Origin: Solibacillus sp. FSL H8-0538
Lineage (GTDB): Bacteria; Bacillota; Bacilli; Bacillales_A; Planococcaceae
Direction: 5' to 3'
NCBI RefSeq assembly: GCF_038003525.1
Contig: NZ_JBBOPI010000001.1
Span: 487,001-551,000, forward strand
DNA: 64,000 nt
This document shows, one piece after another, positions 2,001 to 27,663 of this stretch. Every line of letters begins with the position of its first letter. The first letter of the stretch is position 1. The notes beneath the pieces are model-generated. The model ran no database searches. It worked only from the letters and a program-made list of their open reading frames with translations, and had not been told where the DNA came from. A program made the translations under genes and the position numbers.

Positions 2001-2141
2001 GCGCGGATGACAATGGAAATATTCGCAGTTACAGCAGGCTGGCTACTCCACGGTCCAATTGGTGTTACAACCGTCGTACTCGCATGAGGCGCTGGCTATA
2101 TTATTTTAAACATCTCCTTGATCAAATCGCAGGAGAAATAG
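2001..2141 (+). pseudogene. Decayed C-terminal fragment of a YczE-like membrane protein
   Basis: Reading GCG at 2001 gives MEIFAVTAGWLLHGPIGV, then an in-frame TGA where the intact gene has a Leu codon, then GAGYIILN and a TAG at 2139-2141. The pattern matches the C-terminal part of the intact YczE gene downstream (MEVFAALSGWLLGGPVGV near 2740-2800). Only about 46 codons remain, with no start. This is a relic of a second copy, either a tandem duplication or a lost paralogue. Confidence 0.8.
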
Positions 2142-2144
2142 TGT

Positions 2145-2171
2145 AAGCTCTCCAAAATGGGGAGCTTTTTA
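2145..2171 (+). terminator. Terminator behind the YczE relic
   Basis: AAGCTC-TCC pairs with GGGGAGCTT and runs into TTTTT. It outlived the gene it served. Confidence 0.7.
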
Positions 2172-2275
2172 ATGCCCATTTTATTGCGTAGCATCCTTTT
2201 ATATGATTTAGTTAGACTAGGAAATAAATTTACATAACTTTGTATATTTCGTAGTTAATGAAAGTGGGTTTAGGT

Positions 2276-3105: not shown

Positions 3106-3203
3106 TGTAGTTCAACATAAGAAAACAATCGAAAAGAGAAGTTCCTCCAACTCCCGTTTCATGCTAAAATGAGAGCAACTTGCATATGAAAGGAAGAGGC
3201 AAC

Positions 3204-4394
3204 ATGTCAAAAACATTAAATGCATTTATAGACGACAACCTTCAAGCGCTGCATGATCAAGGTTTATACAATGAAATTGATCCAGTTGAAAGCGCAAACG
3301 GACCAGTAATTCAAGTGCGCGGTAAAAGTTTAATTAACTTATCTTCAAATAACTATCTTGGTTTAGCAACAAACGAGGAATTAAAAACAATTGCTAAGAA
3401 TGCGATTGATAAATATGGCGTTGGGGCAGGGGCTGTACGTACAATTAACGGCACACTTGACCTTCACGTAAAACTGGAAGAAAAGCTAGCAGAATTCAAA
3501 GGAACAGAAGCGGCAATTTCTTATCAATCAGGCTTCAACTGTAATATGGCCGCTATTTCTGCTGTTATGGATAAAAACGATGCAATTCTGTCTGATGCAC
3601 TAAACCATGCATCAATTATCGATGGCTGTCGCTTATCGAAAGCGAAAATCATTCCGTTTCATCACTCAGATATGGACGACCTACGCGCGAAAGCAAAGGA
3701 AGCAACAGAATCTGGCCTTTACAATAAAGTAATGGTTATTACGGACGGCGTATTCTCAATGGACGGCGATATCGCCAAGCTACCAGAAATCGTAGAAATC
3801 GCAAAGGAATTTGATTTAATTACGTATGTGGATGATGCGCATGGTTCAGGCGTTACAGGTAAAGGGAAGGGTACAGTGAAGCATTTCGGGTTAGAGCGTG
3901 AAATTGACTTCCAAATCGGTACTTTATCGAAAGCAATCGGCGTTGTCGGCGGTTATGTGGCTGGCAAGAAAAACTTGATTAATTGGTTAAAAGTCCGCTC
4001 TCGTCCGTTCCTATTCTCAACAGCATTGCCACCGGGTGATGTAGCAGCAATTACACGTGCAGTTGAAATGATTATGGAATCAACAGAGTTGCATGACAAG
4101 CTTTGGGAAAACGGCGACTACCTGAAAAAAGGTTTAGCTGAGCTAGGGTTTAACATTGGTGAATCGGAAACACCGATCACACCATGTATTATTGGGGACG
4201 AAAAATTGACACAGGAATTTTCAAAACGTTTATTTGAAGAAGGCGTTTACGCAAAATCAATCGTCTTCCCAACAGTTCCTAAAGGCACAGGTCGTGTCCG
4301 CAACATGCCAACAGCAGCGCACACAAAAGGAATGCTAGACGACGCACTCGTAATCTATGCAAAAGTAGGCCGCGAATTAGGCGTTATTCAATAA
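3204..4394 (+). CDS. kbl: Glycine C-acetyltransferase (2-amino-3-ketobutyrate CoA ligase)
   Basis: A PLP enzyme of the alpha-oxoamine synthase family. It cleaves 2-amino-3-ketobutyrate with CoA to glycine and acetyl-CoA, the second step of threonine breakdown. Visible motifs are NLSSNNYLG near residue 45, the [10 protein letters not shown] segment near residue 215, and [13 protein letters not shown] near residue 245 with the PLP-binding Lys. The 396-residue length is normal. The start at 3204 (MSKTLNAF) follows GAAAGGAAGAGG, whereas the upstream TTG at 3180 has no site. Its partner, an SDR-type threonine dehydrogenase, is 9 kb away at 13581 rather than adjacent. Confidence 0.93.
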
Positions 4395-4524: not shown

Positions 4525-4710
4525 TTAAATAGAATCCGCCTCCGCAGCCGTCTCAGCCATGGGTTTTTCTACTAATACATGCCTGCCGTTTTGCTTGGCA
4601 GTAATGGCTATGTCACAGTGTAAATCGGGAGGTGTGTAAATAATGACGGCGTCCACTTGTTCGTCAGCCCAAATTGCCTCTAATGAACGTGATGCATACT
4701 CCCTAAATCG
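4525..4710 (-). pseudogene. Remnant of a Gfo/Idh/MocA-family oxidoreductase
   Basis: On the minus strand the stretch reads LEAIWADEQVDAVIIYTPP, then HCDIAITAKQNGRHVLVEKP and MAETAAEADSI before a TAA. This is the classic N-terminal Rossmann part of Gfo/Idh/MocA sugar dehydrogenases, with the EKP motif. The nucleotide-binding glycine loop before it and the whole C-terminal domain after it are missing, so only about 60 of about 340 residues remain. It cannot be functional. Confidence 0.85.
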
Positions 4711-4782
4711 TTTCCTTTCTTACAATCAAGAGATAGTGAAAAGGAAAAAATACACTTTTTACACAGTCTAATTAATAGGCAT

Positions 4783-5916
4783 TTAGTTTTTCACAATCGT
4801 TAAGTTGCACACATTCGCTACACGGCTTACACCTGCAAGCCCCATGGATACTTTAAATTCATCGTATAGATTTTGCATGACTTGGCGTACGCCTGCTTCA
4901 CCTGCGTAGGCTAGTCCATACACGAATGGCCGACCAATTGCGACAGCTGTTGCGCCTAAAGCTAATGCTTTTAGTACATCGATACCGCGGTACACGCCGC
5001 CGTCCAAAATAACCGGAATGCGTCGGTCAACAGCTTTCACAACTGCAGGAAGCGCATCCAAGCTACCAACCACGCCGTCTAATTGGCGCCCCCCATGATT
5101 GGAAACAAAAATTCCATCTACGCCTGCTTCAATTGCTAACTTTGCATCTTCAGGATGTAAAATTCCTTTTAATAATACAGGTAATTTCGTACGTTCCTTC
5201 AATTCACGCACATTGTCCCAGCTTAAAGTGGGATGATAAATATTTGCCAGCAAACCTTCAATAAATGCCTCGGATGAATCATCACGTAGCGTTGACATGA
5301 ACACAGGATCGGTTTCATAGTTACCACGCGAGAAGCCTTTTTTCAAGGGTGAAAATTGGTTGCGAACATCGTGCTCTCTCCAGCCAAGCATTACGGTATC
5401 AATTGTTAATACAATGGCTTCAAAACCAGCTTGTTCTGCGCGCTCTACCATACTAAATGAAATATCTTCATTTGTTGACCAGTATAATTGGAACCATTTC
5501 GTATGATGTGGTGCAGTTTCTGCAATTTGTTCCATCGAATAACTTGAAACGGTGCTTTGTACATACGGAATTTGTAAATCCATTGCTGCACGCACAACCG
5601 CTAGCTCACCGTCTTCGTGCGCAATTTTATTCATGCCGACGGGAGCAAATAGTAGGGGAGTTGGATGTGTTTTTCCGAATAATTCAATGGATGTATCCAG
5701 TATTGATACATCATTTAAAAAACGCGGTACAATGGAATATTTGTGAAAAGCATCACGATTATTACGTAGTGACTGCTCGCCGCCCGCACCTGAACGTACA
5801 TAGCTATAAGGGCCAATATCAATTTTGTCTTTAACCGCTTGCTCTAATTCTTCAAAACCAATCGGAAAAGCTTGTGCCGTTCCGATATTTTTTAATAATA
5901 AATCACCTTTACTCAT
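4783..5916 (-). CDS. FMN-dependent alpha-hydroxy-acid oxidase (lactate oxidase family)
   Basis: A 377-residue protein of the glycolate oxidase/lactate oxidase family, which oxidises L-2-hydroxy acids to 2-keto acids with O2. Near residue 260 it has SNHGGRQLDG, the catalytic His and substrate Arg signature. It also has the FMN phosphate motif LDGGVYRGIDVLKALALGA and YSYVRSGAGGEQS near the N-terminus. The start at 5916 follows GGAGATGAG. It begins 13 bp after the metI stop, so it is probably the last gene of the SAM-riboswitch met operon. That placement suggests a sulfur-containing hydroxy acid, such as 2-hydroxy-4-methylthiobutyrate, rather than lactate. This is inference; sequence alone does not fix the substrate. 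Confidence 0.85.
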   Translation of the reverse strand: MSKGDLLLKNIGTAQAFPIGFEELEQAVKDKIDIGPYSYVRSGAGGEQSLRNNRDAFHKYSIVPRFLNDVSILDTSIELFGKTHPTPLLFAPVGMNKIAHEDGELAVVRAAMDLQIPYVQSTVSSYSMEQIAETAPHHTKWFQLYWSTNEDISFSMVERAEQAGFEAIVLTIDTVMLGWREHDVRNQFSPLKKGFSRGNYETDPVFMSTLRDDSSEAFIEGLLANIYHPTLSWDNVRELKERTKLPVLLKGILHPEDAKLAIEAGVDGIFVSNHGGRQLDGVVGSLDALPAVVKAVDRRIPVILDGGVYRGIDVLKALALGATAVAIGRPFVYGLAYAGEAGVRQVMQNLYDEFKVSMGLAGVSRVANVCNLTIVKN

Positions 5917-5929
5917 GAACTCATCTCCA

Positions 5930-6601
5930 TTAATCACGTTTTAGGTTGCTTGCCACGCGGTTCCCAACAGACTGAATGATTTGTACTAAAATAATTAAAA
6001 TAAATACGGCGGCATACATCACGTCGACTTGATAACGAATATGACCGAAGCGGTAGGCCAAGTCACCAAGGCCACCTGCACCCACAAGCCCAGCCATCGC
6101 TGTTGCACCGACTAAGCCAACTGTTGCGATCGTTAAGCCTAGAACGATGGATGAACGTGCTTCGCGAAGTAGAACATTCATCACGATATGACGGCGTTTA
6201 ATGCCCATTGCTGTATATGCTTCAACGACACCAGGTGACACCTCAAGCAGTGCCGATTCCAATAATCGTGCGATATACGGCGCTGTGTATACAACAAGTG
6301 GAACGATTACCCCTTTAACCCCAATCGTCGTCCCAACAATGAACTTTGTAAATGGAAGGATAAAGAATAGTAGAATAATGAACGGAATCGAACGGATAAT
6401 ATTAATAACTAAGTTTAAAATTTGGTAGAGCCATTTATTTTCGAATAATTGCCCAGGTCGTGTTAGAACGATTAAAATCCCGAGTGGAATTCCAATTAAT
6501 ACAGCTAGCACAAGGGAAATAGACGCCATTTGAAGCGTTTCGCCAAGTGATTTCAAAATAACATGTCCCCATTGATCAAAAAATGCTTGTAAACTACTCA
6601 T
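5930..6601 (-). CDS. metI: Methionine ABC transporter permease MetI
   Basis: A 223-residue permease with five predicted helices of the MetI family. The EAA-loop region YTAMGIKRRHIVMNVLLREA sits near residues 130-150 and a GATAMAGLVGAGGLGDLA segment follows. It forms the membrane channel of the MetNIQ importer for methionine and related compounds. Its start overlaps the metN stop by 8 bp, indicating translational coupling. Confidence 0.93.
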   Translation of the reverse strand: MSSLQAFFDQWGHVILKSLGETLQMASISLVLAVLIGIPLGILIVLTRPGQLFENKWLYQILNLVINIIRSIPFIILLFFILPFTKFIVGTTIGVKGVIVPLVVYTAPYIARLLESALLEVSPGVVEAYTAMGIKRRHIVMNVLLREARSSIVLGLTIATVGLVGATAMAGLVGAGGLGDLAYRFGHIRYQVDVMYAAVFILIILVQIIQSVGNRVASNLKRD

Positions 6602-7619
6602 TGTCGTCGCCTCCTAATCGTTCAATTTGGACGCCATTTTGTTCAAGATAGGATGTGATTTGTTGGATTTCTTGCGGCTTTCCCCCTACATGAACAACGA
6701 TATTGCCGACAATGCCGTTTTTCAATTCAATAATGTTTGCAGCTAAAATATTCGGCGCTACATTAAAGCGGTTACTAATATCGGCAATCAGTGGTTTTCC
6801 TGTGCTTTCACCAACAAATGTTAAACGTACTACCGCACCTGTTAAGTTCAGCTGGTTGATTAATGATTTAGATAATGAACGTTGTGAAATAGTGTTCAAG
6901 AATTTGCGCGTTGTTGGATGCGTGGGCTTTTTAAATAGCTCGATTGCTGAGTTATGCTCCACAAGCTTCCCTTTTTCGAGTACATACACGTAATCGCAAA
7001 TTTTTTGGATTACGTTCATTTCATGGGTAATCAGTAAAATAGTAATCCCAAGTTCACGATTGATTTTTAACAGAAGCTCTAAAATGGAGTCTGTCGTTTC
7101 TGGATCAAGTGCGCTCGTTGCTTCATCGCTTAGTAAAACTTCGGGTTCCTGTGCAAGGGCGCGGGCGATAGCGACACGTTGTTTTTGTCCACCAGATAAT
7201 TGGTTAGGGAAGTTCGTTAATTTATCCGTTAACCCAACAATCTCAGCATACTTTGCGACTTTAGCTGCTACCTCTTTTTTACTATAGCCGAGTAAGTTTA
7301 GAGGAATTGCAATATTGTCATAAACTGTTGCTGTTTTAAGTAGGTTAAAACCTTGGAAGATCATCCCGATTTTTTGACGTGTTTTCCGAAGGTCCTCTGT
7401 TGATGCAGACATTAAATCCACACCGTTAATTCGAACATTGCCACTAGTTGGGCGCTCAAGTAAGTTGACACAACGAATCAGTGTACTTTTTCCGGCACCA
7501 CTATAGCCGATGACGCCGTGAATTTCGCCTTTTTTGACATGTAAATCTACATCATCAACGGCATTGAATACACCTTGCTTAGATGGGTACTGCTTCACGA
7601 TGTTTTGGAGTTGTATCAT
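6594..7619 (-). CDS. metN: Methionine ABC transporter ATP-binding protein MetN
   Basis: A 341-residue ATPase of the methionine importer. It has Walker A GYSGAGKST near residue 40, the signature LSGGQKQRVAIARALA near 140, and Walker B VLLSDEATSALDP. The C-terminal 90 residues form the NIL domain that binds methionine and inhibits transport when internal levels are high. The true start is MIQLQNIVKQY at 7619. The longer open frame to 7715 reads through repeat A2 and should not be annotated as protein. Confidence 0.95.
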   Translation of the reverse strand: MIQLQNIVKQYPSKQGVFNAVDDVDLHVKKGEIHGVIGYSGAGKSTLIRCVNLLERPTSGNVRINGVDLMSASTEDLRKTRQKIGMIFQGFNLLKTATVYDNIAIPLNLLGYSKKEVAAKVAKYAEIVGLTDKLTNFPNQLSGGQKQRVAIARALAQEPEVLLSDEATSALDPETTDSILELLLKINRELGITILLITHEMNVIQKICDYVYVLEKGKLVEHNSAIELFKKPTHPTTRKFLNTISQRSLSKSLINQLNLTGAVVRLTFVGESTGKPLIADISNRFNVAPNILAANIIELKNGIVGNIVVHVGGKPQEIQQITSYLEQNGVQIERLGGDDNE

Positions 7620-7684
7620 AAAAATCCTCGCCTTTCTAGAGAAAAAGCTACCGGCAAAGTTGCCGATAACTTTTCGTATTTTTG

Positions 7685-7766
7685 GTGGATAAGAAAGTAT
7701 AACTTTTCCATTCACATTAGTAAGGACATCAACTCGCCGTATTTTGGGCGAGTTGTGTCTTTCTAA
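7685..7766. repeat. Dispersed repeat A2 inside the met operon
   Basis: A full-length family A copy, sharing AAGAAAGTATAACTTT and ATTTTGGGCGAGTTGTGTCT with the others. It fills most of the 154-bp gap between metQ and metN. Read on the transcript (minus) strand it gives two hairpins just after the metQ stop, which could lower metNIlox expression relative to metQ or protect the metQ message. Confidence 0.85.
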
Positions 7767-7773
7767 TTACGAA

Positions 7774-8592
7774 TTAAAATCCTGGAATAACTGCGCCTTC
7801 ATATGTTTCTATAATATAATTACGTACTTCGTCAGTTTGGTAAGCTTCGATGAATTTCTTTAAATCTTCGCTATCTTCTTCACCTGGACGTACAACTAAT
7901 TTGTTTACGTACGGAGAGTCAGATGATTCAAGAATGATCGAATCGTTTTTCGGATTTAAACCTGCTTCAAGTGCGAAGTTTGTGTTGATTGCTGCAAAAT
8001 CTACTTCAGCTAATTGAGTTGGTAATTGAGCGGCTTCTAGTTCGATAAATTCATAATTATGTGGGTTATCTACTACATCAAAGATGGATGCGTTAATGCT
8101 CACACCTTCTTTTAATGTGATATAACCAGCATCTGCTAATACAACTAATGCACGTCCACCGTTTGTCGCATCATTAGGTAAAGCAAATGTTGCACCGTCA
8201 GGAACTTCTTCCATTGACGCGTATTTAGACGAGTATATGCCCATTGGATTTAAAATTGTATTTCCTACTGATACAAGTTCTTCGCCGCGGTCCGTGTTGA
8301 ATGTATCTAAGAATGGCTGCGTTTGGAAGTTGTTAATATCAAGATCGCCTTCTACTAGCGCTGTGTTCGGTAATACATAATCAGAGAATACACGGATGTC
8401 TACTTCTAAGCCGTTTTCCGCTGCGATGTCTGCTGCAATTTCTGTAATTTCTTCGTGTAAGCCAGCAGTTACGCCGATTACTAATTTACCGTCATTTAAT
8501 GTGTCTTCTGCAGTTTCTTCTCCGCCACAAGCTGCAAGAGCAAGTGCTAAGGCTGATGTTGCAAATAAAAAGCCGATTTTTTTAAATTTCAT
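7774..8592 (-). CDS. metQ: Methionine ABC transporter substrate-binding lipoprotein MetQ
   Basis: A 272-residue NlpA-family lipoprotein. The signal peptide ends in the lipobox LALAACG, with Cys at about residue 21. The mature part has the family features LVIGVTAG near the N-terminus and the PNDATNGGRALVVLADAGYI block. It is anchored outside the membrane and delivers methionine, D-methionine or methionine sulfoxide to MetNI. It is the first gene after the SAM riboswitch. Confidence 0.94.
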   Translation of the reverse strand: MKFKKIGFLFATSALALALAACGGEETAEDTLNDGKLVIGVTAGLHEEITEIAADIAAENGLEVDIRVFSDYVLPNTALVEGDLDINNFQTQPFLDTFNTDRGEELVSVGNTILNPMGIYSSKYASMEEVPDGATFALPNDATNGGRALVVLADAGYITLKEGVSINASIFDVVDNPHNYEFIELEAAQLPTQLAEVDFAAINTNFALEAGLNPKNDSIILESSDSPYVNKLVVRPGEEDSEDLKKFIEAYQTDEVRNYIIETYEGAVIPGF

Positions 8593-8628
8593 GGTTGAAA
8601 TCCCCCTAGATGTTTTGTTTTAGTTAAT

Positions 8629-8660
8629 AAAAAAATGCCTCTCTTGAAAAAGAGAGGCAT
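8629..8660 (-). terminator. Attenuator terminator of the SAM riboswitch
   Basis: On the minus strand ATGCCTCTCTT pairs with AGAGAGGCAT and is followed by T7. It lies between the aptamer and metQ, the normal position for an S-box attenuator. Confidence 0.9.
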
Positions 8661-8679
8661 CGAAAAGTCAATTTAGATT

Positions 8680-8793
8680 ACCACTCTTATCTTTCAAAAC
8701 ATTTCTGTTTTGTAGGAATTAGCACCGGCCAACAAGTGTTGGTGGTTGCCGAGCTTCATAGGGCCTATCCCTCAGCTACTCTTAATAAGAGAA
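8680..8793 (-). promoter_or_regulatory. SAM-I riboswitch (S-box leader) controlling metQ-metN-metI-oxidase
   Basis: The minus strand shows the S-box landmarks in order: P1 strand CTCTTATTAAGAG, then GCTGAGGGATAGGCCC, ATGAAGCTCGGCAACC, a variable P3 arm, GGTGCTAATTCC, and the closing P1 strand GATAAGAGTGG. These match the SAM-I aptamer core, including the kink-turn and the AUGAA-CCGGCAACC type segment. High SAM should allow the downstream terminator to form and switch the operon off. Confidence 0.95.
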
Positions 8794-8948
8794 AAACATT
8801 ATATTTAAAAACTAATTAATGTAAATATACAGACTATTTAGAACAAAATCAATATAAAATTATATTTTTCTGAAAAAACTTTATTTTAAGATAGTTTGTT
8901 GTTAAATAGAAAAAAGCACATCTTATGGGAGGGATGTGCTTTTCATAA

Positions 8949-10130
8949 CTATTTGACGATGACTTGCTTGAATAAATTTAATTTTTCTACGCGGCGTACA
9001 GCTTCACGCATACGATCCTCATTTACAAGTAGACCAACGCGCACATAGCCTTCACCGTATTCACCAAAGCCATTACCAGCAGCAACGGCTACGTCTGCCT
9101 TTTCTAATAGTAAATTTGCAAATTCCTGGCTTGTGTAGCCTTCTGCAACAGGCAACCATGCAAAGAACGAGCCTTTTGGTGCCGTAATGTTCCAGCCGAT
9201 GCGGTGCGCTTCTTCAACGAGTATATTGCGGCGGCTTTCGTATGTTGTCCGTAAAGCTTCAACACAGTCCTGTTCCGCATTTAATGCCACTGCTGCAGCA
9301 TGTTGCACAGCGGGGAACTGGTTACAAAATAGATGATCTTGAATGATATTGATTGCTTCAATTATTTTGGCATTGCCGACAGCAAAACCAATGCGCCAGC
9401 CTGCCATATTATATGATTTTGATAATGTATACAGCTCGATGCCGACATCTTTTGCACCGGCCGCTTGTAAGAAGCTCGGAGGACGAACGCCGTCAAAGCC
9501 GATTGCACCGTACGCAAAGTCATGCGCAACGGCAATATTATTTTCCTTCGCAAACGCTACTGTGTCTTCAAAAAAAGCTAAATCTGCTGTGCCCCCAGTT
9601 GGATTGTTCGGATAGTTTATGTACATCAATTTTGCTCGCTCGCGTACTTCTGGAGAAAGTACCTTGTAATCTGGTAAAAATGCATTCGCCTCTTCAAGCG
9701 GCATCGTATCAAATTTCACGTCTGCAAGTGCAACTCCTGATAAATAATCCGGATAACCTGGGTCTGGCAACAGCATATAATCGCCAGGATTTAAAATTGC
9801 CATTGGTAGCTCTACTAAACCAATTTTTGTTCCGCCTAAAATCGCTATTTCTGTGTTCGGATCAATATCCACGCTGTATTCACGTTTGTAAAAATCAGCG
9901 GCTGCCTGTTTAATTTCTGGGATACCGCGGAACGGAGAATATTTATGCGTTTGCGGATCCATCACTGCATGCTGCAGGGCTTCAACAATATGACCTGGTG
10001 TTGGTTGATCAGGATTGCCTTGCCCTAGATTAATAATATCGCGTCCTTCCGCAAGCGCTGCATTTACTTTTCCAACGAGTGCAGCAAAAAATTGCGGAGG
10101 GAGTTGCTGTAGTTTTTTCGAAAATTCCAT
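8949..10130 (-). CDS. mtnE: PLP aminotransferase, probable methionine-salvage transaminase MtnE
   Basis: A 393-residue class I/II aminotransferase with the PLP-lysine segment LYTLSKSYNMAGWRIGFAVG near residue 235, the NYPNNPTGG motif and a C-terminal YVRVGLL. It resembles B. subtilis MtnE (YkrV), which transaminates 2-keto-4-methylthiobutyrate to methionine with glutamine as donor. The divergent neighbour is an MtnU-like amidase, the same pairing as in B. subtilis, which supports the call. The start at 10130 follows AAAGGTGA at good spacing; the ATG at 10136 is too close to the site. No other mtn genes are in the window. Confidence 0.75.
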   Translation of the reverse strand: MEFSKKLQQLPPQFFAALVGKVNAALAEGRDIINLGQGNPDQPTPGHIVEALQHAVMDPQTHKYSPFRGIPEIKQAAADFYKREYSVDIDPNTEIAILGGTKIGLVELPMAILNPGDYMLLPDPGYPDYLSGVALADVKFDTMPLEEANAFLPDYKVLSPEVRERAKLMYINYPNNPTGGTADLAFFEDTVAFAKENNIAVAHDFAYGAIGFDGVRPPSFLQAAGAKDVGIELYTLSKSYNMAGWRIGFAVGNAKIIEAINIIQDHLFCNQFPAVQHAAAVALNAEQDCVEALRTTYESRRNILVEEAHRIGWNITAPKGSFFAWLPVAEGYTSQEFANLLLEKADVAVAAGNGFGEYGEGYVRVGLLVNEDRMREAVRRVEKLNLFKQVIVK

Positions 10131-10322
10131 GTACATTCACCTTTTTCAGAATATAATAAAAATAGTACTGTTATGGTAGTCTTTTTTTAGCGAATAGTAA
10201 AGTGTATTTTTAGGTTATCCGCATAAGAAAGTATAACTTTTGGAGATGTCTAGGCATTCGCGCTTTTGCTAAGAGGTCGTTTTAATTCCTTGGGTGTAAA
10301 CGGGTGCGAATGCGCTTTTTTA

Positions 10323-10403
10323 GTAGATAAGAAAGTATAACTTTCTTATCTACATAAGTAAGGACATCATCTCGCCCTCTATTGGGCGAGATGTGTCTTT
10401 CTA
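10323..10403. repeat. Dispersed repeat A3
   Basis: A full copy: GATAAGAAAGTATAAC then TTTCTTATCTAC (an almost perfect hairpin 1), then AAGGACATCATCTCGCCC paired with GGGCGAGATGTGTCTTT. It starts directly behind a GCGCTTTTTTAG run. A second, lone copy of hairpin 1 (CATAAGAAAGTATAACTTTT) lies at about 10219-10239. Confidence 0.85.
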
Positions 10404-10431
10404 AATAAAAATGTCTAGAGGTGGGGTTCTA

Positions 10432-11235
10432 ATGAAAATCGGATGTATCCAATTAAATGTAGGTTTTGGAAAAGTAGAAGAAAATTATGCGCGCGCAGAG
10501 AAATTTATTCGCGAGGCGGCGGCAGGTGGAGCAGAAATCATCGTACTACCTGAAATGTGGAATACCGGCTATGCACTTGAAAAATTAGGGGAGCTTGCAG
10601 ATGTGAACGGTGAGCGCACGCAAAAATTTTTAAGTGAACTGGCACGCGAATTACACGTACATATTGTTGGCGGTTCTGTTTCAGTGAAGCGCGGCGATAA
10701 ATTTTACAATACGATGTACACGTTTAATCGCACAGGCGAGCTAGTCGGCGAATATAGCAAGGCGCATTTGTTCCGCTTAATGGACGAGCATTTGTATTTG
10801 GAGGCGGGGGATGCAATGAACCGCTTCCAGCTTGACGATATTGAAGCAGCGGGTGTGATTTGCTACGACATTCGTTTCCCGGAATGGCTACGCTCGCATG
10901 CACTGGATGGCGCGAAGGTATTATTTATTCCCGCACAGTGGCCAACACCCCGTATTGATCACTGGAAAACGCTATTACAAGCGCGTGCCATTGAAAATCA
11001 GTGCTTCGTTATTGCGGTAAATCGCATTGCGAGTAAGGTAGAAAACTTTAACGGGCAGTCGATGATTATTGAGCCGTGGGGCGAGGTCTTATGGACAGGC
11101 GCTGATGATGAGGAGTTAGCCATTATCGACGTTGATTTTTCAATTGTTGATGAAGTGCGCAGCCGCATCCCAGTATATGATGACCGTCGCCCGGGATTAT
11201 ATGAAGAAGTAGTAAAACAATCAGTTCGTAAATAA
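10432..11235 (+). CDS. mtnU: Carbon-nitrogen hydrolase, probable omega-amidase MtnU
   Basis: A 267-residue nitrilase-superfamily amidase. The catalytic triad is visible: Glu in EIIVLPEMWN near residue 43, Lys in EYSKAHLF near 112, and Cys in AAGVICYDIRFPEW near 145. With MtnE it is expected to hydrolyse the 2-ketoglutaramate left after glutamine-dependent transamination, pulling methionine salvage forward. The start at 10432 follows AGAGGTGGGG; the earlier ATG at 10411 lies at the edge of repeat A3 and has no site. Confidence 0.78.
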   Translation: MKIGCIQLNVGFGKVEENYARAEKFIREAAAGGAEIIVLPEMWNTGYALEKLGELADVNGERTQKFLSELARELHVHIVGGSVSVKRGDKFYNTMYTFNRTGELVGEYSKAHLFRLMDEHLYLEAGDAMNRFQLDDIEAAGVICYDIRFPEWLRSHALDGAKVLFIPAQWPTPRIDHWKTLLQARAIENQCFVIAVNRIASKVENFNGQSMIIEPWGEVLWTGADDEELAIIDVDFSIVDEVRSRIPVYDDRRPGLYEEVVKQSVRK

Positions 11236-13580: not shown

Positions 13581-14534
13581 ATGAAAAAAATAATCGTAAC
13601 GGGTGCGTTAGGTCAAATTGGTTCAGAATTAGTAGGAAAGCTTCGTGAAACATACGGAACGGATAATGTTTTAGCAACAGATATTCGTAAAATTGGAAAC
13701 AGTGCAGGACCATTTGAAGTATTAGACGTAACAGATGGCCAGCATATGCATGACTTGGCGAAAGATTTTGGCGCAGATACAATGATTCATATGGCAGCTT
13801 TACTTTCAGCGACAGCGGAAAAAAATCCGGTGTTTGCTTGGAATTTAAATATGGGCGGGCTAATGAATGCGCTTGAAGTTTCGCGCGAGCTTGATATGCA
13901 ATTTTTTACACCGAGCTCAATCGGTGCATTTGGGCCTTCAACGCCAAAAGACAATACACCACAAGATACGCTACAACGTCCGTCAACAATGTACGGCGTC
14001 AATAAAGTAGCGGGTGAATTATTATGTGATTATTACCATACGCGTTTCGGTTTAGATACACGCGGTGTGCGTTTTCCAGGATTAATCTCATACGTAACGC
14101 CTCCAGGTGGCGGTACGACAGATTACGCGGTGGATATTTATTACAAAGCAATTGAAGAAGGCCGCTACACTTCATATATTGCAGAAGGCACGTATATGGA
14201 CATGATGTATATGCCAGATGCACTGCAAGCGATTGTCGATTTAATGGAAGCAGATGGTTCTAAATTACAGCACCGCAATGCATTCAATATTTCAGCGATG
14301 AGCTTCGAGCCGTCACAGATCGCAGCCGAAATTCAAAAGCACATCCCAGGCTTCCGAATGAGCTATGATGTAGATTTAGTGCGCCAAGCAATTGCTGATA
14401 GCTGGCCAAATGCAATCGACTCATCAGCCGCTGTTGCAGAATGGGGCTTTAAAGCACAATATGATTTAGCAAGCATGACAACTGATATGCTTGAAAAACT
14501 AAAAAAGCAACTTAAGAAAAAAGCGATTTCTTAA
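13581..14534 (+). CDS. tdh: SDR-type L-threonine 3-dehydrogenase
   Basis: A 317-residue extended short-chain dehydrogenase with the NAD loop [10 protein letters not shown] at the N-terminus, the catalytic YGVNK (Tyr-x3-Lys) near residue 138, and the [13 protein letters not shown] region typical of the UDP-galactose-epimerase-like threonine dehydrogenases. It oxidises threonine to 2-amino-3-ketobutyrate, the substrate of Kbl encoded at 3204. It is unrelated to the zinc MDR-type Tdh of E. coli. The ATG follows GAGGAGGG and the gene has its own terminator. Confidence 0.88.
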
Positions 14535-14598: not shown

Positions 14599-14676
14599 GT
14601 TAGCAGGAATATGTGAATTGAAAATGGAAGTATTAGAATGTGGTAGGAGCTTACATATTACAACGGAGGTATGAAA

Positions 14677-15630
14677 ATGAAACCAAAAGTGTTGATAACA
14701 CATGAGTTGCCAGGGGATTCCATACAAAAATTAAAAGAAATTGCAGATGTAGAGATTTTAGAGGATTCTAACGTCAACAAAGCCGTGCTAATGGAGAAGA
14801 TTGTCGACAAAGAAGCCATTATCTCCTTTTTAGGTGATGAAATTGATCAAGATATTATTAAACAGGGAAATAAATTAAGAATTATTGCTAACTATGCTGT
14901 TGGCTTTAATAATATCGATGTTGAATCAGCAAAAAAATGTGGAATTATTGTAACGAATACACCTGACGTATTAACGGATTCTACAGCGGATTTGACGTGG
15001 GGTCTTATCATGGCAATTGCGAGAAGAATTCCTGAAGGGGACGCTTTTGTAAAGAATAACTTATTTAAAGGGTGGGAGCCGCAATTATTAATCGGACAAG
15101 CCGTTTCAGGCAAAACGTTAGGCATTATTGGGATGGGGAGAATTGGCCAAGCTGTAGCAAGACGTGCAAATGGATTTCAAATGAAGGTGCTATATACAAA
15201 AAGAACCCGATTAACAGAAGCGGAAGAACGCTCATTAAATGCAGAATACTGTAGTTTAGAAGAATTACTACAACAATCCGATTTTGTTTCCTTGCATACA
15301 CCTTTATCAGACGCTACAAAACATTTAATAAGAAAAGAACAATTAGACTTCATGAAGCCAACAGCCTATTTAATCAATACGTCACGCGGAGCTTTAATCC
15401 ATGAAAAAGACTTAGTAGAGAAATTAAAGGCCAAGGAAATTGCTGGAGCTGCTTTAGATGTATTTGAGGATGAACCTAAGTTAGCACCGGGATTAACTGA
15501 GTTAAAAAATGTTGTCTTAACGCCCCATATTGGAAGTTCTACGATTGAAACGCGAATACAAATGGCGGACTTAGCGATTGCAAATGTCATAGCTGTACTT
15601 CAAGGGGAGAAACCGCTAACGATGGTTTAA
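14677..15630 (+). CDS. D-2-hydroxyacid dehydrogenase (glyoxylate/hydroxypyruvate reductase)
   Basis: A 317-residue enzyme of the D-isomer-specific 2-hydroxyacid dehydrogenase family. It has the NAD(P) loop GMGRIGQAVARRA near residue 150, catalytic Arg in NTSRGALIHE near 230, Glu in DVFEDEP near 260, and His in TPHIGSSTIETR near 282. A glycerate kinase gene follows 29 bp later, so D-glycerate formation from hydroxypyruvate or glyoxylate-derived carbon is likely. ATG 14677 lies 6 bp after GGAGGT; the ATG at 14671 touches it. AGA arginine codons are more frequent than in flanking genes, a hint of separate origin. Confidence 0.87.
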   Translation: MKPKVLITHELPGDSIQKLKEIADVEILEDSNVNKAVLMEKIVDKEAIISFLGDEIDQDIIKQGNKLRIIANYAVGFNNIDVESAKKCGIIVTNTPDVLTDSTADLTWGLIMAIARRIPEGDAFVKNNLFKGWEPQLLIGQAVSGKTLGIIGMGRIGQAVARRANGFQMKVLYTKRTRLTEAEERSLNAEYCSLEELLQQSDFVSLHTPLSDATKHLIRKEQLDFMKPTAYLINTSRGALIHEKDLVEKLKAKEIAGAALDVFEDEPKLAPGLTELKNVVLTPHIGSSTIETRIQMADLAIANVIAVLQGEKPLTMV

Positions 15631-15659
15631 CTGTCCACCGTATTTCAAAGGAGGATAAA

Positions 15660-16808
15660 ATGAAAATTGTTATTGCTCCAGATAGTTTCAAAGGCTCTTT
15701 AAGTGCACTAGAAGTATGCGAATGTGTGAAGAAGGGTATTGATAAAGTCCTTTCTAATGTTGAAGTTATAAAAGTACCATTATCAGACGGTGGTGAGGGA
15801 ATAACCCAAACGCTTATAGAAGCAATAGGAGGAATATATGAACATCATATCGTGGCAGATCCATTAAAACGAACTGTGAAAGCGTATTATGGTGTACTAG
15901 GAGACAAAGAAACTGCAGTTATCGAAGTTGCTCAAGCTTCTGGTCTCGTGCATCTGAAACCCAGTGAAAAAAATCCATTAGTTGCTACAAGCTTAGGTAC
16001 TGGCCAATTATTAATGCATGCTGTAAAGAAAGGTTATCGTAAATTTATCATTGGTTTAGGTGGCAGTGGTACGAATGATGGAGGTATTGGGATTCTTATA
16101 GCTCTAGGCGTTCGTTTTTTTGATAACAGCGGTCAGCTAATTGAAATGAATCAAGTAGCTGACATTTTAAAAGTAAGAAAACTACACTTAGAAGAAGTGC
16201 CAAAAGAGTTCAATGACTGTGAATTTTTGGTGGCTAGTGATGTATCAAATATTCTTTGTGGACCAAATGGCGCTACTACAATTTTTGGACCGCAAAAAGG
16301 TGTAAATCAGAGCAATCATCATATTTTAGAGAGGGCTTTGAAACATTTTGGAACAATATTAGAGGAACAATTTCAGGATACTGTATTAAACTTTCCTGGT
16401 AGTGGAGCTGCAGGTGGTATCGGGGCGATATTTAAAGCAATATTTAAAGCTAGATTCTCATCAGGTATTGAGCTAGTAGATAAATATACCGAATTAGAAA
16501 GTAAGATTGCAACTGCGGATCTAATATTTACAGGAGAAGGTAAATTGGATACTCAAACGTTATCTGGAAAAGTTATTTATGGAGTAGGCAAATTAGCAAG
16601 TAAATATGAGAAGCCCGTAATTGCTTTATGTGGAGTGAATGAATTAGATGATAAGGGACTTGATACATTAAATTTGATCGCTGCATTCTCGATTGTCAAA
16701 GGCCCATGTACAGTTGACTATGCAATAGAAAACGCAGCTGAATTAGTAACCAATCTAACTGCTAACATCGTAAGAACTATACTGATTTTTAATAAAGGGA
16801 ATAAGTAA
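15660..16808 (+). CDS. Glycerate kinase (GarK/GlxK family)
   Basis: A 382-residue type-II glycerate kinase that phosphorylates D-glycerate with ATP, passing it into lower glycolysis. Family motifs are the N-terminal PDSFKGSLSALEVC, PLSDGGEGITQTLIEA, GLGGSGTNDGGIG near residue 130, and FTGEGKLDTQTLSGKV near 295. It follows GGAGG and shares a transcript with the reductase upstream. Like that gene it looks AT-richer than the surroundings. Confidence 0.92.
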   Translation: MKIVIAPDSFKGSLSALEVCECVKKGIDKVLSNVEVIKVPLSDGGEGITQTLIEAIGGIYEHHIVADPLKRTVKAYYGVLGDKETAVIEVAQASGLVHLKPSEKNPLVATSLGTGQLLMHAVKKGYRKFIIGLGGSGTNDGGIGILIALGVRFFDNSGQLIEMNQVADILKVRKLHLEEVPKEFNDCEFLVASDVSNILCGPNGATTIFGPQKGVNQSNHHILERALKHFGTILEEQFQDTVLNFPGSGAAGGIGAIFKAIFKARFSSGIELVDKYTELESKIATADLIFTGEGKLDTQTLSGKVIYGVGKLASKYEKPVIALCGVNELDDKGLDTLNLIAAFSIVKGPCTVDYAIENAAELVTNLTANIVRTILIFNKGNK

Positions 16809-26623: not shown

Positions 26624-26668
26624 CGCAAAAAAGCCCTCTACAAAAAGAGACTACTCTTTTTGTAGAGG
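26624..26668 (-). terminator. Attenuator terminator of the trp T-box
   Basis: Minus strand CCTCTACAAAAAGAG pairs with CTCTTTTTGTAGAGG, followed by GCTTTTTT. It overlaps the antiterminator region of the T-box. Confidence 0.92.
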
Positions 26669-26860
26669 ACGATATATGACCGCGTTGCCACCTCAATTGA
26701 AGCCTAAGCTTCCACTTCATGTCCTTGTAACGGCAGGAAACCGTCCACTAACTAGCGCTAGCGGCTTTCATAAGGCCCATTCACAAAGATTACACAGACG
26801 CGTTTGCACCAACCACGCGCTCTCTAAGCAGGTTATCATTTGCTACTCTTCTTATTCATC
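26624..26860 (-). promoter_or_regulatory. Tryptophan-specific T-box riboswitch upstream of trpE
   Basis: On the minus strand, Stem I contains AGAGAGCGCGTGGTTGGTG. The specifier loop reads GTGAATGGGCC, giving UGG (Trp) at 26777-26779. The conserved T-box GAGGTGGCAACGCGGT at about 26680-26694 closes it before the terminator. Uncharged tRNA(Trp) should stabilise the antiterminator and turn on the whole operon, including the second trpB. Only one T-box is seen, not the tandem arrangement known from some Bacillus species. Confidence 0.95.
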
Positions 26861-26951
26861 AATTTACTCAGCTATACTATTCTCAGCTCTGTCTAGACGG
26901 TGGTCACGCTCCCGTGACCTGCTACCGTATCCGAACAATATTAATATTCAA

Positions 26952-27535: not shown

Positions 27536-27544
27536 TCTTCTATT

Positions 27545-27585
27545 CCTCCTAGTTTTTTTTACGTGGGATGGTTACGAACCACGGT
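27545..27585 (-). promoter_or_regulatory. PreQ1-I riboswitch overlapping the queT ribosome binding site
   Basis: Minus strand reads CGTGGTTCGTAACCATCCC, ACG, then TAAAAAAAACTAGGAGG. This is the compact H-type pseudoknot aptamer: hairpin, CCATCCC loop, A-rich strand and CTAGG. The last bases form the AGGAGG ribosome site 10 bp before the ATG, so ligand binding should block translation of queT. Confidence 0.92.
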
Positions 27586-27663
27586 GTGTTAAACACAAAT
27601 ACCTATATTAATATAGTACAATCTATTCGTCAAATAATGCGGTTAATTGTTGTTGTTAGAAAA

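Follow-up and report, generated by a model that had tools for sequence, protein, structure and literature searches.

In Bacillales, the metNIQ/metNPQ operon for methionine transport stands behind an S-adenosylmethionine (SAM) riboswitch (S-box) and ends with the transporter genes. In enterobacteria, ybdH and mtnE form a MetJ-controlled pair (the two genes share MetJ sites in E. coli), which places a putative hydroxyacid/oxoacid redox enzyme and the aminotransferase MtnE under methionine control (PMC3228920). MtnE also belongs to the universal methionine salvage pathway (MtnKAWXBDE with MtnU), for which its coupling to an omega-amidase has been described (PMC6302742). We analysed a stretch of 64,000 nucleotides from Solibacillus sp. 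FSL H8-0538 (contig NZ_JBBOPI010000001.1, positions 487,001 to 551,000; hereafter the window), in which a flavin mononucleotide (FMN)-dependent 2-hydroxy-acid oxidase, termed OX here, is the last gene of an S-box-headed metQ-metN-metI operon. The aptamer family, the terminator layout and the transporter genes are those of the metNIQ/metNPQ operon, but OX has been added, and in relatives genes for a crotonase-family protein, a coenzyme A (CoA)-transferase and a PCC/DUF296 protein as well. The ybdH-mtnE pair differs in that YbdH, an iron-type dehydrogenase, has no relationship to the FMN-dependent OX, that MetJ control includes mtnE and that there is no metNIQ. Homologues of MtnE and MtnU adjoin the operon, whereas the acireductone dioxygenase (ARD) and RuBisCO-like enolase of the salvage pathway are absent from the genome. 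OX itself shares its whole-protein fold and catalytic residues with the lactate monooxygenase of M. smegmatis, glycolate oxidase/HAO1 and lactate oxidase (LOX), but is set apart from them by an identity of 31–42%, by its place in the methionine regulon and by its failure in the lactate oxidase and LldD models. The operon arrangement, which is kept across many soil bacteria, suggests an undescribed synthesis of methionine from its hydroxy analogue, 2-hydroxy-4-methylthiobutyrate (HMTB). A preliminary description of the window had known of no described operon of such composition; none was found in the literature searched, nor was a bacterial operon dedicated to HMTB use, an earlier mention still being possible.

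The operon is encoded on the minus strand. A promoter-like site, TTTACA-16-TATAAT (8798..8825), recognised solely as an 11/12 match to consensus, lies just upstream of the SAM-I aptamer (8684..8791), which scores 90.1 bits with Rfam RF00162 (gathering score 44.4) and 114.1 bits with the custom model R1. Between the aptamer and metQ, the intrinsic terminator of the expression platform (8634..8661) consists of a 12-pair stem and then a T run; the leader is predicted to fold far more stably than shuffled sequence (z −3.7), with the terminator hairpin present. The order of promoter-like site, aptamer and terminator before metQ is the layout of a transcription-terminating S-box. The gene metQ (7774..8592) encodes a methionine-type substrate-binding lipoprotein (PF03180 and TIGR00363, over cut-off), metN (6594..7619) the ATP-binding subunit with NIL domain (PF00005 (ABC_tran) and PF09383) and metI (5930..6601) the permease (PF00528). 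The best match of metN, TIGR02314, reaches 363 bits and is under its cut-off of 499.7, and that of metI, PRK10782, reaches 204.8 bits with a cut-off of 212; the MetQ/NlpA lipoprotein, the NIL-domain ATPase and the cognate permease together make up a MetNIQ transporter. The genes metN and metI share 8 bases, and 13 bp separate the end of metI (5930) from the ATG (5916) of an intact OX (4783..5916; PF01070, E 4e-124). No terminator-like site was found at the metI-OX junction on the minus strand. Every element that the preliminary description had listed, from the S-box through metQ, metN and metI to OX on one strand with the 13-bp gap, is present, and so are the mtnE-type transaminase and the carbon-nitrogen hydrolase as the next genes upstream.

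The mtnE-type aminotransferase gene (8949..10136, minus strand; NF005977, 665 bits, cut-off 494) lies upstream of the S-box and forms its own transcription unit. It closes with a hairpin and T run (8910-8937, minus strand), and the mtnU-type carbon-nitrogen hydrolase gene (10432..11235, plus strand; PF00795) is divergent from it. The hydrolase, for which no equivalog model reached cut-off, is a probable omega-amidase. Since mtnE lies upstream of the S-box with its own hairpin and mtnU on the other strand, both are placed outside S-box control; judged by this layout, the riboswitch covers metQNI-OX only, and the idea that the whole set is repressed at high SAM is not supported for mtnE and mtnU. 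The gap between metQ and metN contains a copy of a dispersed hairpin repeat (7655..7770), which is terminator-like on the plus strand only and was rejected as an operon terminator because the coding strand has no T run. This short repeat, a GC-rich hairpin (TAAGTAAGGACATCAACTCG...), occurs in seven copies in the window (4442, 7717, 10355, 11311, 16864, 43586 and 55089), with 0.01 expected by chance.

Scanning one genome per species yielded 80 OX loci, or 81 with the window. Linkage to metI was scored when metI was on the same strand and directly upstream of OX or one gene away, and was found in 43 of the 81 loci (window included), distributed over Lysinibacillus, Psychrobacillus, Sporosarcina, Planococcus, Savagea, Peribacillus, Cytobacillus gottheilii, Pseudogracilibacillus, Oceanobacillus and Brevibacillus. 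On the OX tree, the linkage label changes seven times, compared with about 27 times for shuffled labels; with linkage in this many loci, it is not due to chance. A SAM riboswitch heads 41 of the 43 metI-linked loci, and the S-box label changes five times on the tree (shuffled mean 27). The exceptions are L006, a truncated contig, and L070 (Brevibacillus), the only intact locus without an S-box. The search in relatives that had been proposed thus finds the oxidase-metQNI linkage conserved; it is not unique to this strain, and metI and OX are not separated by a promoter or terminator.

In Bacillus sinesaloumensis (L027), OX stands alone, with no metQNI found in the 17 kb locus. A promoter-like site (7648) comes first, followed by the SAM riboswitch (7717-7829), which scores 89.2 bits with Rfam, a terminator (7861-7886) and the ATG of OX at 7941; the next gene is on the opposite strand. 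This stand-alone S-box-OX leads us to reject a mere hitchhiking of OX on metQNI and makes OX itself a member of the methionine regulon. On these sequence grounds, membership of OX in the SAM-riboswitch methionine regulon is well supported. That part of the earlier interpretation stands; SAM repression of mtnE/mtnU is not supported. Some loci of the scan show further arrangements. In L069, a SAM riboswitch (2109-2199, plus strand) precedes a gene for an MFS-type transporter; OX, which here belongs to no met operon, is a few kb away. In L057 (9227-9997, plus strand), L030 and L059 (Oceanobacillus), a 2-oxo-pentenoate-hydratase-like gene (FAA hydrolase family) follows mtnE, the S-box and metN-metI-OX.

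OX is a single-copy gene in the Solibacillus genome. The protein scores far under the curated cut-offs for L-lactate oxidase (TIGR02708, 259 against 645.5) and LldD (NF033901, 221.9 against 550). The residues equivalent to Y40, Y146, D174, K241, H265 and R268 of LOX are all retained in the window OX. Across the 81 OX sequences, the equivalent of Y40 is His or Phe in seven methionine-linked rows, and the other five catalytic residues are invariant. With its PF01070 domain and the catalytic Tyr, Tyr, Asp, Lys, His and Arg, OX is assigned to the FMN 2-hydroxy-acid oxidase/dehydrogenase family. The predicted model (predicted local distance difference test (pLDDT) 87.7) superimposes on structures of the PF01070 family with Z 45-50. 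The equivalent of LOX Ala95 is Gly in 81/81 OX sequences; an A95G exchange in lactate oxidase has been reported to yield a long-chain 2-hydroxy-acid oxidase (Yorita et al. 1996). Glycine at this position would allow a larger substrate without proving one.

We propose that OX is a methionine-supply enzyme that oxidises L-HMTB to 2-keto-4-methylthiobutyrate (KMTB), from which methionine is then formed via MtnE, and we give this reading a probability of about one half. When SAM is low, the S-box would be read through into metQ-metN-metI-OX. MetQNI would import methionine-like compounds, and L-HMTB could be imported or arise within the cell. With O2, OX would produce KMTB from L-HMTB or from a closely related sulfur 2-hydroxy acid. 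MtnE, itself outside S-box control, would aminate KMTB to methionine with glutamine as the probable amino donor, and MtnU would clear the 2-ketoglutaramate. MetQ keeps the Asn of the SPYVN motif, the residue mutated in E. coli MetQ chain 6cvl; as the canonical methionine-binding motifs are retained, nothing in the pocket indicates specificity for a hydroxy acid. HMTB is commonly added to feed as a source of methionine. 4-Methylthio-2-hydroxybutyrate is an intermediate of the transamination route to dimethylsulfoniopropionate (DMSP). It features in studies of that route, which starts from methionine, in algae and bacteria (e.g. PMC10989797, PMC5395565).

The genome, which is 99.96% complete, contains no ARD (PF03079) and no RuBisCO-like protein (PF00016), so that KMTB cannot be derived from methylthioadenosine by the known route and another source is needed. 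Without the methylthioadenosine salvage pathway, MtnE is an orphan in this genome; it is likewise an orphan in the Lysinibacillus and Oceanobacillus genomes tested. An orphan MtnE is compatible with a role downstream of OX and lends this role weak support. Six S-boxes are present in the genome, with metA-like, metH-like, metY-like, metK, metN-metI-metQ and the OX operon as targets (downstream proteins read); the ordinary S-box metN-metI-metQ is located at 2.94 Mb. In G034, a decayed OX remnant directly follows mtnE, which indicates that OX was once present there.

A second hydroxyacid enzyme occurs in the same setting. Several relatives encode iron-type dehydrogenases in S-box methionine-transporter operons. 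The best model for these enzymes is PRK10586 (E. coli YbdH, also named HcxA); none reaches the PRK10586 cut-off, and the YbdH/HcxA assignment is therefore by best match. The dehydrogenase and OX share one methionine-transporter operon in L021, L055, L071 and G020 (for G020, no S-box was found in the stretch scanned). In L051 and L053, the dehydrogenase is in the S-box transporter operon with OX about 4 kb away, and in G012 and G030 it is in such an operon adjoining mtnU-mtnE, with OX not at the locus. The occurrence of OX and the iron-type dehydrogenase, members of unrelated families, in this setting points to a 2-hydroxy/2-oxo acid step in methionine supply. A further SAM riboswitch was seen behind mtnE in locus L177 of genome G030 (5876-8032, plus strand). 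The genes that follow it were identified by eye as those of an SsuE-like FMN reductase and of an NtaA/SnaA-like monooxygenase, and may form another organosulfur operon under SAM repression.

Several observations weigh against the conversion of HMTB to KMTB by OX. By Z, the structure nearest to the OX model is the lactate monooxygenase of M. smegmatis (Z 49.8, 366 residues aligned, 35% identity), with plant glycolate oxidase next (Z 47.2, 41% identity). The glycine at LOX position 95 is also found in lactate monooxygenase, and because all 81 homologues have it, including those outside the methionine regulon, it is no marker for HMTB. MtnE is encoded in 7/7 genomes with OX and in 22/30 without it (37 family genomes, Fisher p 0.31), and the mtnE/mtnU pair also adjoins the ordinary S-box metNIQ in relatives. 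The adjacency of MtnE, which the preliminary description had used as evidence for the route, is real but weakened as evidence, and the mere presence of MtnE, being equally common without OX, was rejected as evidence too. The presence of ARD is independent of OX in the family genomes (Fisher p 1.0). Lastly, the route has no need of the crotonase and the CoA-transferase that accompany OX in most of the metI-linked loci.

These two genes were found in 26 of the 43 loci, the crotonase-family gene between metI and OX and the type III CoA-transferase gene after OX. Their presence agrees in 43/43 loci, and they move together, with OX retained, in 6/6 independent contrasts on supported branches (sign test p 0.03). 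Both flank OX in Brevibacillus thermoruber (L070; tblastn). A divergent PCC/DUF296 gene is present in 22 of the 43 loci (for example at 3764-4270, minus strand, in L018) and never without crotonase and CoA-transferase. The reduced form, with neither flanking gene, is seen in the window, L. odysseyi, Sporosarcina and others. A search of the Solibacillus genome found no crotonase or CoA-transferase orthologue elsewhere (best 33-35% identity); relocation was rejected, both genes being missing rather than moved. Directly downstream of OX in the window there is an apparent remnant of a Gfo/Idh/MocA-type oxidoreductase gene (4540-4715, minus strand), at the place where relatives hold the CoA-transferase. 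In the crotonase, alignment to 5zai and conservation show that the first catalytic Glu of hydratases is replaced by Ala and the second Glu is kept; with the first Glu lost, it is probably no plain hydratase. The PCC model (pLDDT 93.7) resembles solved PPC proteins first and acetolactate decarboxylases next. Three invariant His (101, 103 and 117) resemble those of a metal site, which we regard as a lead and not as a function. We offer only tentatively, and with the odds somewhat against it, a SAM-repressed pathway for methionine acquisition across Bacillales. In it, OX, joined in the full form by the CoA-transferase, the atypical single-Glu crotonase and the PCC/DUF296 protein, would make methionine, or the methylthio group of methionine, from methylthio-hydroxy acids.

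The main alternative is that OX resembles lactate monooxygenase in function as in its top structural match, and would convert HMTB or a related sulfur 2-hydroxy acid to a decarboxylated acid such as 3-methylthiopropionate. Where the operon is full, this product would pass to the CoA-transferase and crotonase, which are always found jointly, perhaps freeing methanethiol for methionine synthesis, which an S-box-controlled O-acetylhomoserine-sulfhydrylase-like gene in the Solibacillus genome (identified by eye) could use; reduced forms such as that of the window would keep the first step alone, or other genes would do the rest. We consider this reading unlikely. The first of the two catalytic Glu of hydratases is missing from the crotonase, the operon has no acyl-CoA dehydrogenase, and glycolate oxidase-type enzymes are closer to OX by identity (40-41% against 35%). 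Moreover, the flanking genes have been lost repeatedly with OX kept, so OX has a role without them.

Alternatively, the substrate may arise inside the cell. If dehydrogenases reduce KMTB to HMTB, OX and MtnE/MtnU might act in metabolite repair and restore methionine, with MetQNI importing methionine only. The OX of B. sinesaloumensis, under an S-box without any transporter, and the methionine-binding motifs of MetQ agree with this, and HMTB could be a product or a substrate of the YbdH/HcxA-like enzymes encoded in sister operons; the tight succession of metI and OX in most lineages hints instead at a link to uptake, and we find repair rather improbable. Equally improbable is that OX is an ordinary lactate/glycolate oxidase whose place in the methionine regulon answers an indirect need: the family is known chiefly for lactate and glycolate, and the window has glyoxylate-reductase-like and glycerate-kinase-like genes (14671-16808) at a distance of about 9 kb, but OX misses the L-lactate oxidase and LldD cut-offs by far, and its direct and repeated SAM-riboswitch control has no obvious reason in a lactate enzyme.

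The locus is flanked on one side by a glycine C-acetyltransferase-like gene (3180-4394) and on the other by a gene of the epimerase family (13581-14534) that resembles short-chain threonine dehydrogenase. Farther along the window, a T-box leader (26662-26868) and a PreQ1 riboswitch (27543-27588) are located on the minus strand.

Direct control of an oxidase by a SAM riboswitch indicates a function class of its own for OX. If the tentative pathway with CoA-transferase, crotonase and PCC/DUF296 protein is true, it would be, within the literature searched, the first case described of bacteria with a dedicated use for the hydroxy analogue of methionine, and a PCC/DUF296 protein would gain a role. 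If the proposed conversion of HMTB by OX is confirmed, the lactate/glycolate annotations of OX-type proteins in many genomes would be corrected.

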